From Victivallales bacterium (lineage in GTDB: Bacteria > Verrucomicrobiota > Lentisphaeria > Victivallales > UBA1829): a stretch of DNA of 10,281 bases. Each line of letters opens with the position of its first letter. Position 1 is the first letter of the stretch. The stretch is from the NCBI GenBank assembly GCA_016285335.1, contig JAEEQO010000097.1, positions 1-10,281 of the forward strand, in the 5' to 3' direction. The notes beneath the pieces were generated by a model. The model was not told where the DNA came from, did no database searches, and saw only the letters and a program-made list of their open reading frames with translations. Below, in pieces: positions 363 to 6,717 of the stretch. The position numbers and the translations under genes were made by a program.

Positions 363-854
363 ATGAAAGTTCTGATCGCGATCGTCATGTTTCTTTTCGG
401 ATTGTTCGTCGGCATCCTCATCATTCCGACGTTCAAAGAGTTTTCCACGTCGATGTTATCGGAGGAGGAATACTCCACGCCGCGCATGAAGACCGTGCTG
501 AGCGGGTTCGGGATCACTCTTCCGCTCGAAGCCGCCGACATCAACCTGTACCTGAAGCAGGACGAGGAGAAAAGACAGGTCTGGGTGAAGTTCGAATGTC
601 CCGACGACGCAAAAGACGAATTCATGCAGAGGCTGAACGCGAGGCATGCCGGGCTGTTCAACCGGGAGATCGAAATGCCGAAGATGTTCGACGGCACCCC
701 GGTCTCCTGGTGGTCGTTCAACAATTCGTTCCGGTACTATGAATTCGACGGTATGTGCGCTGCATACGACGATCTGCTGCACCAGGTCTATCTGTACGCC
801 ATTCAGGACGATGCCAAACTGGAGCCGAAAGCTCAGCCTTCCTCCCTGGACTGA
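363..854 (+). CDS. Small membrane-anchored protein of unknown function
   Basis: This is a 163-residue protein that I do not recognise. Residues 3-22 (LIAIVMFLFGLFVGILIIP) form one hydrophobic segment right at the N-terminus, with a single Lys before it. This fits an uncleaved signal anchor or a signal peptide without a lipobox Cys. The rest is soluble and acidic, about 140 residues, with aromatic strings such as WWSF (116-119) and RYYEF (124-128), and would lie outside the cytoplasmic membrane. The start ATG at 363 has AGGAG 7-8 nt upstream. The gene stands alone, with its own promoter at 249-277 and a terminator of the previous gene before that. Its plan (N-terminal membrane segment, short Tyr-rich outer domain) resembles the protein encoded at 8295-8885 on the other strand, but I see no convincing alignment. 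Coding status is likely because start, RBS, promoter and composition agree; the function is unknown. Confidence 0.75.
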   Translation: MKVLIAIVMFLFGLFVGILIIPTFKEFSTSMLSEEEYSTPRMKTVLSGFGITLPLEAADINLYLKQDEEKRQVWVKFECPDDAKDEFMQRLNARHAGLFNREIEMPKMFDGTPVSWWSFNNSFRYYEFDGMCAAYDDLLHQVYLYAIQDDAKLEPKAQPSSLD

Positions 855-1078: not shown

Positions 1079-1456
1079 ATGGATAAATACTACTCGAAAA
1101 CCCATGAATGGGTCAAGATCACCGACGACGAGGAAGCGATTGTCGGCATTTCCGAATACGCAGCGAAAGAGCTTCTCGGTGACATTACGTATGTTGAACT
1201 GCCGAAGGAAGGAACGGACCTGATCTGCGGCGACTGCGCCGGCACCATCGAATCCGTGACGGCTTCCTCCGAAGTCTTTTCTCCCGTGAGCGGGACCGTG
1301 ACCGCCGTCAACCATGCTCTGGACGACGATGCCGGACTCATCAACAAGAGCGCCGAGGGGAAAGGCTGGCTTTACAAGCTGGAGGATTACGACCCTACCG
1401 AGCTCGAAGAGCTTATGCCGGAAGAGGATTACGCGGATTACCTGGAAACGCTTTGA
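1079..1456 (+). CDS. Glycine cleavage system H-like protein lacking the lipoyl lysine
   Basis: This is a 125-residue protein with the complete GcvH plan: HEWVK near residue 9, the strand region LGDITYVELPKEG (33-45), the lipoyl hairpin IESVTASSEVFSPVSG (57-72), GWLYKLEDYD, and an acidic C-terminal helix ending in EEDYADYLETL. Length is normal for the family. True H proteins carry lipoate on the lysine of the motif ESVKAAS and shuttle the aminomethyl group between the P, T and L proteins. Here that position is Thr61, encoded ACG at 1259-1261, one base from the Lys codon AAG. No other lysine lies in the hairpin, so lipoylation as known is not possible from this sequence. No gcvT, gcvP or lpd is in the window. 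ATG 1079 has AAAGGA 9 nt upstream and its own promoter. The LOG-family gene follows after 8 nt, so the two are very likely co-transcribed. It may be a GcvH paralogue with another role, a recent mutant, or a base error. The fold assignment is strong; the function is open, so I give no gcvH symbol. Confidence 0.9.
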   Translation: MDKYYSKTHEWVKITDDEEAIVGISEYAAKELLGDITYVELPKEGTDLICGDCAGTIESVTASSEVFSPVSGTVTAVNHALDDDAGLINKSAEGKGWLYKLEDYDPTELEELMPEEDYADYLETL

Positions 1457-1464
1457 GGTGACGG

Positions 1465-2172
1465 ATGTCTGAACTGGATCCCAATATCCTGGCCGGTTTT
1501 TCCGAACTTTACGGAATGAACGCGGAAGAGCCCTGGCGCATTTTCCGCATCATGTCGGAATTCATCGATTCGTTCGAGGTCATGGCGAAACACAAACGGC
1601 TTGTTTCCGTGTTCGGCTCCGCCAGGACGAAACCCGACGATCCCGTCTATCAGGACTGCGTCCGCTTCGGCGAACTCCTTACGGACAACGGATATGGCAT
1701 CCTTACCGGCGGCGGCCCCGGCATCATGGAAGCGGCGAACCGCGGCGCATGGAACAAGAACGGCGATTCCGTTGGGCTGAACATCAAGCTTCCGATGGAA
1801 CAGCATCCGAACCCGTACCAGACCGAATCCCTTGATTTCCGTTATTTCTTTGTCCGCAAGGTCTGTTTCCTGAAGTATTCCGTCGCGATTGTCGTCTATC
1901 CCGGCGGGTTCGGCACGCTCGACGAGTTCTCCGAAGCCCTCACTCTGATCCAGACCAGCAAGGTCCGCACTGTGCCGCTCGTGGCGGTCGGAAAGGAATA
2001 CTGGGGCCCTCTCTTCGACTGGTTCCGCACGACCATGCTCCGCGACCGCATGATCAACGAAGACGATCTTGATCTGTTCTATGTCGCCGAAAATGCCGAC
2101 GACGCGTTCAGCTTCATCAAGCGCGTTCACGACAGAAGCGGCGTGAAAAGCACGGTCCGGAAAGATATCTGA
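1465..2172 (+). CDS. LOG-family (TIGR00730-type) Rossmann-fold protein, putative nucleotide phosphoribohydrolase
   Basis: This is a 235-residue protein. The diagnostic motifs are VFGSAR (49-54), GGGPGIMEAANRGA (82-95) and PGGFGTLDEF (146-155), the last two being the LOG/lysine-decarboxylase-like signature that binds a nucleotide 5'-monophosphate. Family members split cytokinin riboside or purine nucleoside monophosphates into base and ribose 5-phosphate; older databases call them lysine decarboxylases, which is not supported. A roughly 45-residue N-terminal helix region precedes the core, as in longer bacterial members. ATG 1465 follows the stop of the GcvH-like gene by 8 nt, with GAGGTG overlapping that stop as RBS, so translation is probably coupled. 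A terminator follows at 2202-2247. The substrate in this organism is not determined by the sequence. The partnership with a lysine-less GcvH is notable and unexplained. Confidence 0.92.
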   Translation: MSELDPNILAGFSELYGMNAEEPWRIFRIMSEFIDSFEVMAKHKRLVSVFGSARTKPDDPVYQDCVRFGELLTDNGYGILTGGGPGIMEAANRGAWNKNGDSVGLNIKLPMEQHPNPYQTESLDFRYFFVRKVCFLKYSVAIVVYPGGFGTLDEFSEALTLIQTSKVRTVPLVAVGKEYWGPLFDWFRTTMLRDRMINEDDLDLFYVAENADDAFSFIKRVHDRSGVKSTVRKDI

Positions 2173-2300: not shown

Positions 2301-2304
2301 AATT

Positions 2305-2405
2305 CAGTCACACGGGGTGCTGGAACCGTGCATCGAAACACGGGCTCCGGCTGAGATCATACCCGCACACCTGATCCGGATAATGCCGGCGTAGGAAATC
2401 ACGAC
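2305..2405 (+). ncRNA. TPP riboswitch (THI element)
   Basis: The sequence carries the conserved THI-box blocks in order: ACGGGGTGC (2312-2320), GGCTGAGA (2349-2356), ACCC (2361-2364), ACCTGATCCGGATAATGCCGGCG (2369-2391) and TAGGAAA. P2 forms between GGGGT and ACCC. P3 is the variable arm with ACCGTG/CACGG. P5 is CCGG/CCGG around ATAATG. The P1 stem is hard to place by eye and may be short. TPP binding would lower expression of the THI4-ThiE operon. The outer limits are approximate. Confidence 0.95.
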
Positions 2406-2412
2406 AGCGAAA

Positions 2413-2469
2413 TCCTTTCCGACGGAAAGCACTCGCGGTTTTCTGCGAACAACCAACCAAACGAAAGGA
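2413..2469 (+). promoter_or_regulatory. Candidate riboswitch expression platform masking the thi4 RBS
   Basis: TCCTTTC at 2413-2419 is perfectly complementary to GAAAGGA at 2463-2469, which contains the Shine-Dalgarno of the thi4 gene (AGGA, 8 nt before ATG 2478). The same segment can instead form a local hairpin, CTTTCC (2415-2420) with GGAAAG (2424-2429), loop GAC. These two structures exclude each other, as expected of a translational on/off switch. No hairpin followed by a T-run lies between aptamer and start, so attenuation by termination is less likely. The pairing is seen in the sequence; the mechanism is inferred. Confidence 0.55.
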
Positions 2470-2477
2470 CAGACAAA

Positions 2478-3281
2478 ATGTCGGACAACACCACCTCCCA
2501 GGTCATCGAAACGACCATCTCCCGCGCCATCGTCGAAAACTTCTCGGCGAAACTCCTCGACAACCTCACGGTCGACGTCGCCATCGTCGGCGGCGGCCCC
2601 TCCGCGCTCGTCGCGGCCCGCTACCTCGCGAAGAAGGGCGTCCGTGTGGCGATCTTCGAACGCAAGCTTGCACCGGGCGGCGGCACATGGGGCGGCGGCA
2701 TGCTCTTCAACGAAGTCGTGGTGCAGGACGCCTCGCTGGAGATCCTCGACGAATTCGGCATCCACCACAAGCCCATCCCGGGCGCGCCCGGCTACAACAC
2801 GCTCGACTCCGTTGAAATGGCGAGCGGCCTCATCTTCGGCGCGGTCAACGCGGGCGCGAAGATTTTCAACGCCGTCAGCGTGGAGGACATCGTGTTCCGC
2901 GGCGAGCAGGTCGGCGGCCTCGTCATCAACTGGACCCCGGTCGAACGACTCGGCATGCACGTGGACCCGCTGACTGTGATCTCGCAGTGCGTGCTGGACG
3001 GCACCGGACACCCGAGCGAGATCATGCACCTCGCCGTCGAAAAAGCACAGCTGAAGCTCGCCACGTCCACCGGCGGCATCCTCGGCGAGAAGCCCATGTG
3101 GGTCGACAGCGGCGAAGCTTCCACGGTCGAAAACACCCGCGAATACTACCCCGGCCTCTTCGCCTGCGGCATGAGCGCGAACAACGTGATGGGCGGCTAC
3201 CGCATGGGCCCCATCTTCGGCGGCATGATGCTCTCCGGCCGCAAGGCCGCGGACCTCATCCTGAAGAAACTCGGGAAGTGA
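2478..3281 (+). CDS. thi4: THI4-type thiazole synthase, sulfide-dependent (His) form
   Basis: This is a 267-residue protein, full family length. It has a Rossmann dinucleotide motif [18 protein letters not shown] (34-51), [16 protein letters not shown] (61-76), [16 protein letters not shown] (174-189) and a C-terminal [24 protein letters not shown] (231-254). THI4 enzymes build the thiazole carboxylate of thiamine from NAD and glycine plus sulfur. The yeast and plant enzymes give up sulfur from an active-site Cys and work once. At the matching position this protein has His184 (in IMHLA), as in archaeal and anaerobe enzymes that use free sulfide and iron catalytically. The TPP riboswitch upstream and thiE directly downstream confirm a thiamine role. 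The start ATG 2478 has AAAGGA 8 nt upstream. Codon use is strongly C/G-ending. Membership is very sure; the sulfide dependence is by analogy with the His form. Confidence 0.95.
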
Positions 3282-4407: not shown

Positions 4408-6717
4408 ATGAACATGGAAAACAAAGAACTGATCTCCATGAGAGTACGTGAGCTCAGGGCTCAGAAAAACTTCACCGTGCCGCAGATGGCGGAGCTCCTC
4501 GGCGTTTCGCCGGAGGAATACTCCCTGTACGAAAGCGGGACCAAACAGGCCCCGTTCTCGTTCTACTACAATCTGGCGGAACACTTCGGGCTGGACGTCT
4601 CCTCCGTCATCAGCGGCGAAGCGCCGAACCTGGACGTCTACACCGTGACCCGCAGCGGCGAGGGCTTCCCCTTCGTCCGCCGCCCCGAGTTCTCCTACCT
4701 GCATCAGGCGATCCGCATGAAGGACCGCACCGGCGAGCCGTTCATCGTGACCGCTCCGCCGCCTGCCAACCCGGACGAACCGCTCCAGTATTCCGAGCAC
4801 AACGGCCAGGAATTCGACCTGATCCTGTCCGGCTCGCTGAAGATCTTCCTGCACGGCAAGGAAGAGCTTCTGAACGAGGGCGACAGCATCTATTTCGACG
4901 GACGCGAAGCGCACGCCATGGTCGCTTACGGCGGCAAGCCCTGCAAGTTCCTCTCCATCGTGATGCACAGCAAGTACGACGACGCCAAGCCCGACCGGTT
5001 CGCGTTCGTGCCGCAGCAGGTGGTGAAGGCACCGCCGACCGGCAGCAAACGCCTTCTGTATCAGGACTACATGGAGGAGGAGTGGAACCAGGACGGCACG
5101 CTGAAAGGCGTAAAGTTCCATGTGCCGGACAACTTCAACTTCGCGTTCGACGTGGTCGCCCGCCTCGCCGCGGAATGTCCGGACAAGATCGCCATGAAGT
5201 GGGTCTCCAAGGACAAGGTCTGCCGCGACTTCACGTTCCGTGACATCTGCGAAAACGCCATGCGGACCGCCAACCTGCTGCATTCGCTCGGGATCCGCAA
5301 GGGCGACCGCGTGATGCTGGTCCTGAAACGCCATTACCAGTTCTGGTTCGTGCTGAACGCGCTCCACATGATCGGCGCGGTCGCGGTCCCGGCGTCCTGC
5401 CAGATGACCGCCCACGATTTCGAATACCGCTTCAAAATGGCGGACATCCGCTATGTGTTCTGCTCCGCGGACGGCAATATCACGAAGGAGATCGACGAGG
5501 CCGCCAAGGTCACCGGCATGACGCTGAAGCTCTCCGTGAACGGGCAGAAGGACGGCTGGCTCGACTACGACTCCCTGTATCCGAATTTCCCGCCCGTCTT
5601 CCAGCGCCCCGCCGACCAGAAAACCACCGATCCGAGCCTCGTCTTCTTCAGCTCCGGCACCACCGGCTACCCGAAGATGGTCGAGCACGACTACGCATAC
5701 CCGCTGGGACACATCATGACTGCGCGCCACTGGCACAAGGTCAACCCCGACGGCCTCCACTTCACCGTGGCCGACACCGGCTGGGGCAAGGCGCTGTGGG
5801 GCAAGATCTATGGACAGTGGCTCTGCGAAGCCGGCGTCTTCACGTTCGACTTCGACCGTTTCCACGCCGCCGACATGCTCCCGATGTTCAAGCAGTACGG
5901 CATCACCACCTTCTGCGCGCCGCCGACCATCTTCCGTTTCCTCGTGAAGGAAGACCTCTCCCAGGTCGATTTCTCCACGCTCGAACACGTCACCACCGCC
6001 GGCGAGGCCATGCCGCCCGAGGTCAGCGAGGCGTTCGCACGCGTGTCCGGCCAGCTCCCGTACGAGGGCTTCGGCCAGACCGAAACCACGCTGACCATCG
6101 CCACGCTCTCCGATATGAAGCCGCGTCCCGGCTCCATGGGCCGCGCCAATCCGCAGTACGAGGTCGTGCTGCTCGATTCGGACGGGAATCCGGTGGCGAC
6201 CGGCGAGACCGGCGAGATCTGCGTGAAGGCGGAACCGGGCAACCGTCCCTGCGGACTTTTCGACTGCTACGTCAAGAACCAGGAAGACACGGACAAGGTC
6301 TGGCACGACGGCTACTACCACACCGGCGACCAGGCGTGGCAGGACGAGGACGGCTACTTCTGGTATCAGGGCAGGGCGGACGACATCATCAAGACGTCCG
6401 GCTACCGCGTCGGCCCGTTCGAGGTCGAAAGCGTCCTCATGGAACTCCCGTACATCCTCGAATGCGCCGTGACCGGCGTGCCCGATCCCGTCCGCGGCAA
6501 GGTCGTGAAGGCCACCGTGGTGCTCGTGAAGGGCAAGGAAGGTTCCGAGGAACTCAAGGAAGAGATCAAAAACTACGTGAAGACCCACACCGCGCCGTAC
6601 AAATATCCGCGCATCATCGAGTTCGTCTCCGAGCTTCCGAAGACCGTCAACGGCAAGATTCGCCGCGCCGCGATCCGCGCGCAGAACGAAGCGGCGTCCG
6701 CCGAAAAGAAGGCGTAA
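4408..6717 (+). CDS. XRE-HTH / cupin / AMP-dependent acyl-CoA synthetase fusion protein
   Basis: This is a 769-residue protein with three parts. Residues 10-70 form an XRE-type helix-turn-helix (VRELRAQKNFTVPQMAELLG, VSPEEYSLYESG). Residues about 125-190 form a cupin barrel (EHNGQEFDLILSGSLKIFLHG, LNEGDSIYFDGREAHAM). From about 245 to 760 lies a complete ANL adenylate-forming enzyme: P-loop SSGTTGYPK (415-423), YEGFGQTETT (552-561), YHTGD (637-641), GRADDIIKTSGYRVGPFEVE (655-674) and PKTVNGKIRR with the C-terminal catalytic Lys750. The enzyme resembles medium-chain/aromatic acyl-CoA synthetases, which activate a carboxylate with ATP and load CoA; the substrate is not readable from the sequence. 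XRE-cupin proteins are usually separate repressors, so fusion implies direct coupling of sensing, DNA binding and catalysis. ATG 4408 has AAGGA 4 nt upstream; ATG 4414 (spacing 10) is an alternative start. Leader ORF and inverted repeat precede it; a bidirectional terminator follows. The frame is uninterrupted, so the fusion is not obviously an artefact. Confidence 0.93.
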   Translation: MNMENKELISMRVRELRAQKNFTVPQMAELLGVSPEEYSLYESGTKQAPFSFYYNLAEHFGLDVSSVISGEAPNLDVYTVTRSGEGFPFVRRPEFSYLHQAIRMKDRTGEPFIVTAPPPANPDEPLQYSEHNGQEFDLILSGSLKIFLHGKEELLNEGDSIYFDGREAHAMVAYGGKPCKFLSIVMHSKYDDAKPDRFAFVPQQVVKAPPTGSKRLLYQDYMEEEWNQDGTLKGVKFHVPDNFNFAFDVVARLAAECPDKIAMKWVSKDKVCRDFTFRDICENAMRTANLLHSLGIRKGDRVMLVLKRHYQFWFVLNALHMIGAVAVPASCQMTAHDFEYRFKMADIRYVFCSADGNITKEIDEAAKVTGMTLKLSVNGQKDGWLDYDSLYPNFPPVFQRPADQKTTDPSLVFFSSGTTGYPKMVEHDYAYPLGHIMTARHWHKVNPDGLHFTVADTGWGKALWGKIYGQWLCEAGVFTFDFDRFHAADMLPMFKQYGITTFCAPPTIFRFLVKEDLSQVDFSTLEHVTTAGEAMPPEVSEAFARVSGQLPYEGFGQTETTLTIATLSDMKPRPGSMGRANPQYEVVLLDSDGNPVATGETGEICVKAEPGNRPCGLFDCYVKNQEDTDKVWHDGYYHTGDQAWQDEDGYFWYQGRADDIIKTSGYRVGPFEVESVLMELPYILECAVTGVPDPVRGKVVKATVVLVKGKEGSEELKEEIKNYVKTHTAPYKYPRIIEFVSELPKTVNGKIRRAAIRAQNEAASAEKKA

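Follow-up and report, generated by a model that had tools for sequence, protein, structure and literature searches.

The window, a stretch of 10,281 nucleotides from a member of the order Victivallales, contains a gene for a 125-residue GcvH-like protein (1079..1456, + strand), described as an intact GcvH relative from a gut bacterium. GcvH is the textbook lipoyl carrier that moves the aminomethyl group between the P and T proteins of the glycine cleavage system. In family-model searches, the window protein scored above the cut-offs of TIGR00527 (128.1 vs. 115.85 bits), PRK01202.1 (131.6 vs. 117 bits), and PF01597 (124 vs. 22.2 bits), shared 43–45% identity with the bovine H protein (3klr), and was predicted by AF2 and Foldseek to adopt the H-protein fold. 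Alignment to the lysines of 2ka7 and 1zko placed codon ACG (1259..1261, +), encoding Thr61, at the lipoyl-lysine position, so that the hairpin (1250..1294, +) reads E58-x2-T61-x10-G72 instead of the lipoyl motif Ex2Kx10G. The family models and the predicted fold thus confirmed the initial annotation, which had recognized an H-protein framework with Thr in place of the lipoyl lysine.

Upstream of gcvH lies a fast-evolving gene for a small protein of no recognized family with an N-terminal hydrophobic stretch (363..854, +), and a scan of the + strand ahead of gcvH revealed no promoter-like site. A gene for a LOG-family protein (1465..2172, +; TIGR00730, 126 vs. 96.35 bits) begins 8 bp past the gcvH stop codon. 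It is followed by a TPP riboswitch-like element (2303..2416, +; 52.2 bits, just below the gathering score of 54.3) and by the gene for Thi4, a sulfide-dependent ADP-thiazole synthase (2478..3281, +), a neighbor that lies outside the present finding. We considered whether Thi4 and ThiE form one unit with gcvH and LOG; because the TPP riboswitch-like element lies between LOG and Thi4, the thiamine genes are probably a separate unit. Among the nine window proteins scanned, the recognized neighbors of gcvH were LOG, Thi4, ThiE, an AMP ligase, and YjbQ. One protein, encoded at 4408–6717, combines helix-turn-helix, cupin, and AMP-forming acyl-CoA ligase domains, and similar genes were found nearby in several relatives whose loci extend that far.

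A protein search returned 295 homologues at E ≤ 1e-5. Among 121 proteins (the query and the best 120 of the 295), the lipoyl site was occupied by Ser in 92, Thr in 29, and Lys in none, while E58, S59, V60, A62, S63, S64, and G72 were invariant. A base error at position 1260, one of three readings offered by the initial annotation, would require a single transversion, since ACG is one transversion from AAG; it is refuted by the nearest homologue (P0002; 98% identical, 21 member sequences), which also carries Thr, and by the presence of Thr in 27 more of the 120 listed proteins, and we regard it as practically excluded. At the loci of 12 related species genomes (L001–L012), the site was Ser in 11 (TCC, TCG, or TCA) and Lys (AAA) in L010. 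A second search starting from L010 gave 1,889 matches, the best 120 of which added 22 proteins to the set; four of these, of the L010 type, carried Lys (P0122–P0125), and the other 18 carried Ser or Thr. A sister with a Lys codon, which the initial annotation had expected to mark an ordinary GcvH, therefore exists in one lineage only; because the closer relatives listed carry Ser or Thr, this lineage helps to date the change rather than refuting it. A codon route AAG → ACG → TCG is plausible, its direction being suggested by the Lys-bearing sisters.

Each of the 12 relatives' genomes (G001–G012) had two PF01597 matches. As the initial annotation had proposed to check, a second gcvH was present in 12/12: this canonical copy lies between gcvT and gcvPA, in a gcvT-gcvH-gcvPA operon, and reads ESVKAVS. 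The window-type copy was preceded by the counterpart of the 363–854 gene and followed by LOG in 12/12 genomes, with 9–44 bp to the start of the LOG alignment, and none of the 12 loci showed the linkage to gcvT/gcvP that is usual, although not universal, for gcvH. Judging from these relatives, the window's own genome probably also contains a second, canonical gcvH. The window protein is like canonical GcvH (TIGR00527, PF01597) in fold, length, framework motifs, and model scores, and differs from it in lacking the lipoyl lysine, in not lying beside gcvT/gcvP, and in having a canonical copy elsewhere in the relatives. The 12 genomes contained GcvP, GcvT (as a strong canonical match only), and a strong LplA (204–217 bits), with no LipA match. 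Their GcvPA proteins were 60–71% identical over the full length to other copies in the order and 35–40% identical to three copies, one from Halorussus and two from Clostridia; because they are closer to copies within the order, there is no support for a canonical operon newly acquired from a distant donor. The two gcvH copies may have arisen by either duplication or transfer within the order.

Window-type gcvH showed a median pN/pS of 0.084 (13 sequences, including the Lys sister L010), compared to 0.183 for the canonical gcvH of the same genomes (12 sequences), 0.157 for LOG (11), 0.069 for Thi4 (9), and 0.363 for the upstream 363–854 gene (13), all values being uncorrected and synonymous sites being near saturation in several sets. 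The lower ratio of window-type relative to canonical gcvH reflects its higher dS (0.637 vs. 0.240), the median dN being equal (0.038 vs. 0.039). The entropy was below 0.1 in 76 of the 125 columns of the window clade; conservation of the hairpin was not above average, 49 of 109 17-column windows having an entropy as low or lower. Because the flanks of the hairpin are still invariant, the attachment residue alone has changed in this clade so far. Loss of the one residue required for the known function is what a decaying copy heading toward a pseudogene would display; however, the frame was open in 12/12 window-type loci and, together with the median pN/pS of 0.084, this refutes such decay, so that the recently inactivated copy envisaged by the initial annotation is very improbable. 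Support for its remaining reading, that of a non-lipoylated paralogue in a new role, comes from the clade-wide change, the strong purifying selection, and the second canonical gcvH in 12/12 relatives.

To place the gene in its order, we searched 137 genomes of this order with PF01597; 127 matched, and 145 GcvH loci in 126 genomes were read, leaving out five weak partial matches (22–26 bits) and further matches at the weak end. The lipoyl column held K in 84 loci, S in 15, D in 11, R in 10, G in 6, N in 5, T in 4, E in 4, Q in 2, and A, V, H, and C in one each. Among the 137 genomes, GcvP was over the cut-off in 63 and LipA in 66, and there were matches to LplA/LipB in 109, to GcvT in 87, and to the 2-oxoacid dehydrogenase E2 in 85, where single gene absences may be false because genome completeness was not given. 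For cross-tabulation, the LipA set comprised these 66 genomes plus G123 (split match), and the E2 set comprised 74, omitting 11 weak matches (86–101 bits) that were found in 11 of the 12 window-type genomes.

Lysine loss was linked to the absence of GcvP. In the 61 GcvP-positive genomes with GcvH read, all single copies carried Lys (45/45), and at least one of the two copies in each of the 16 two-copy genomes carried Lys and adjoined gcvT or gcvPA. GcvH was kept in 65 of the 74 genomes without GcvP over the cut-off, and their 68 copies (hereafter orphans) comprised 47 without Lys and 21 with Lys; one non-Lys copy (G101) had a stop within the frame. For single-copy genomes, the Lys/non-Lys counts were 45/0 with GcvP vs. 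20/42 without (Fisher p 1e-14, uncorrected for kinship). Eighteen of the 65 GcvP-less keepers had no LipA over the cut-off and no LplA/LipB match, seven of them with a weak, sub-cut-off LipA-like match. These 18 included seven sisters (G044, G045, and G056–G060), six with Lys and one with Thr, that had no GcvP, GcvT, LplA, or E2 match. Lysine loss is not compulsory, as Lys survives in 21/68 copies from GcvP-less genomes and in the sister G010.

Molecular phylogenetic analysis revealed 21 changes of the Lys/non-Lys label on the maximum-likelihood tree (154 rows; bootstrap 19–21), at least 13 of which were forced by well-supported branches; the exact number is unsure because the tree rests on 123 columns, with many open forks and some long branches meeting. 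Orphan gcvH proved to be under purifying selection: eight sets (five non-Lys and three wholly or mainly Lys; three of the eight were single pairs) had median pN/pS values of 0.053–0.145, and a further orphan set, a divergent LOG group (five sequences), had 0.291, compared to 0.140 and 0.167 for two GcvP-positive sets. We compared conservation between 43 non-Lys orphans and 62 copies from GcvP-positive genomes, omitting eight rows (those on long branches, a fragment, and L131, whose GCS label was false), three outgroup rows, and 20 Lys orphans. In the non-Lys orphans, residues 59–65 varied widely and segment 33–39 was also loosened, while nearly all of 44–52, 93–97, and 105–115 were conserved at least as strongly as in the GcvP-positive copies, kinship being uncorrected.

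LOG was the gene downstream of gcvH in 18 genomes, namely the 12/12 window-type genomes and the GcvP-less sisters G037, G042–G045, and G056, and thus adjoined gcvH in just 6 of the 68 GcvP-less loci, which makes one partner common to all less likely. Other orphan neighbors were HPr (15 loci), FolP (3), DUF362 (6), and FolE (upstream in 5 loci of 4 genomes), with one representative of each type verified with Pfam. The HPr-like protein was next in the 15 loci (L144, L166, L167, and others in G090–G116), and in 14 of them it was followed by another conserved, membrane-like protein. Folate genes adjoined orphan gcvH in two lineages, with dihydropteroate synthase downstream in one (L121, L123, and L124; G046–G048) and GTP cyclohydrolase I upstream in the other (L126, L130, L136, L139, and L149; G081, G082, G084, and G085). 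No single neighbor was common to all orphans, as LOG, HPr, FolP, FolE, and DUF362 differed by lineage, which suggests that either a universal partner is encoded elsewhere or the role differs by lineage.

A GcvT match, mostly weak, was found in 26 GcvP-less genomes. We read the GcvT-like protein in 20 of these (L213–L232; G068, G078–G080, G087, G090, G091, G093–G096, G100, G104, G106–G109, G115, G127, and G128) and found the aligned catalytic Asp in 3 and another residue in 17, some of the alignments being weak. The catalytic Asp is the residue that we take it to be from E. coli numbering. This choice also rests on the title of PDB entry 3a8k (D97N). The GcvT-like gene was located just upstream of orphan gcvH in G078–G080 and G068, whereas G107, also among the 20, had no GcvH match.

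We consider it likely that the window protein is a non-lipoylatable pseudo-carrier and that GcvH of this order has a lipoate-independent role that outlives glycine cleavage, with the lysine repeatedly lost. Because it has no lysine, the protein cannot carry lipoate by known chemistry, and we infer that it is not lipoylated in the cell. Glycine cleavage in window-type bacteria would be performed by the second, canonical gcvH, and the whole H-protein fold would be kept while the swinging arm became dispensable. After loss of GcvP, and in some genomes after loss of the lipoylation enzymes, a lipoate-independent function would retain gcvH, and an arm no longer needed would allow the lysine to be lost again and again. 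Most likely, the window protein works by protein binding, as a binding or regulatory subunit of another protein; in the window clade this candidate partner is perhaps the LOG-family protein encoded 8 bp downstream, as the gene order suggests. Whether the order has one conserved second H-protein function, independent of both lipoate and the enzymes of glycine cleavage, partly acting with an Asp-less GcvT-like protein and maybe tied to folate or nucleotide metabolism, is in our estimate an even bet. A literature search, mostly of papers outside subscription, found no report of a lysine-less H protein.

Two other explanations grant the protein a function. Ser/Thr61 might be a new covalent site, bearing a phosphate, an acyl group, or another arm at the hairpin tip, so that the protein would still be a carrier or a switch. 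Ser and Thr alone occupied the site in 121/121 proteins (the query and the best 120 of 295) with varying codons (TCC, TCG, TCA, and ACG), and the ESV-ASS flanks were invariant in the window clade while the hairpin was variable in the other non-Lys orphans, as this explanation would predict. However, the window clade is conserved in most columns with a hairpin not above average, the sister L010 keeps Lys, and no modifying enzyme was recognized beside the gene among the window proteins scanned. Other lineages have D, R, N, E, G, Q, A, V, H, or C at the site, so a hydroxyl is not generally needed, and we judge a new covalent site to be rather unlikely. The protein could instead regulate the canonical system or act as its decoy, with GcvT, GcvP, or the lipoate ligase as the target for which it and lipoyl-GcvH compete. 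This would fit the 12 relatives, which carry GcvT, GcvP, canonical GcvH, and strong LplA with no LipA match, and the predicted model, which matches both apo-H and the H protein of the LplA–apoH complex (3a7a). Yet orphan GcvH was kept and its Lys lost in genomes without GcvP and mostly without a strong GcvT, where there is little to compete with, and the sisters G044, G045, and G056–G060 lacked matches to GcvP, GcvT, LplA, and E2 as well as any LipA over the cut-off; competition of this kind seems a slightly poorer prospect still.

The TIGR03077 'not_gcvH' protein is an H-like protein of a related superphylum that occurs without GcvP/GcvT, and which we take to be chlamydial; the window protein scored 62.5 bits against this NCBIfam model, below its cut-off of 144.05. 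According to the accessible part of its report, GcvH-L of Streptococcus and Staphylococcus (5a35) is lipoylated at Lys56 by LplA2 and then ADP-ribosylated, its operon containing a sirtuin and a macrodomain protein (PMC4518038). Like the window protein, it is an additional H-like protein encoded apart from the glycine cleavage operon, but the window protein has no lysine, and no LplA2, SirTM sirtuin, or macrodomain was present among the window genes scanned. LbpA of Hdr-like sulfur oxidation is likewise an H-protein homologue working outside glycine cleavage; in the part of that report available, 95 aligned LbpA proteins keep the lysine and two conserved cysteines, some archaeal ones lacking the cysteines (PMC6067878), whereas the window protein lacks the lysine and no hdr genes were found among the nine window proteins scanned. 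As far as these partial sources go, GcvH-L and LbpA thus keep the lipoyl lysine outside glycine cleavage and window-type proteins do not. For mouse GCSH, too, there is evidence of a role beyond glycine cleavage, proposed in the accessible text to be lipoylation of 2-oxoacid dehydrogenases (PMC7868403); a window-type protein, which has no lysine, could not donate lipoyl groups in this way. A Mycoplasma GcvH is reported to act on the host ER, and the words 'lysine' and 'lipoyl' do not occur in the available part of the text (PMC11156438); it is alike in having a role outside glycine cleavage and differs in being host-directed.

An order in which strong selection maintains GcvH lacking Lys, in the absence of GcvP and partly of recognized lipoylation enzymes, separates the arm from the protein body, and its lysine-less proteins are natural variants for finding the other roles of the H protein. 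If the order does have one such second function, H and T proteins would survive as pseudo-enzymes in another process. Some lysine-less genes are annotated as 'glycine cleavage system protein GcvH', and such names could lead pathway tools to assign glycine cleavage or the use of lipoate to genomes with neither.

To evaluate the pattern outside the order, we used a phylum sample of 288 genomes, 212 of them from outside. GcvP matched in 161 of the 212 (weakly in G191) and not in 51, of which 19 had a PF01597 match. Copies were read in these 19 and in G191 (L183–L212): two genomes had a short, weak match that we read as biotinyl-type from the motif EAMKM, and of the best copies in the other 18, 16 carried Lys, while the remaining 2 had A and D. 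Compared with 65/74 within the order, the 19/51 outside it indicate that retention of GcvH without GcvP, together with lysine loss, is mainly a feature of this order. Another, distantly related GcvH-like family, whose lipoyl motif is eroded (L156, L157, and L159 in G015–G017; L205–L207 and L209–L212), occurred both within the order and beyond it, alongside a Lys-bearing GcvH in the same genome.
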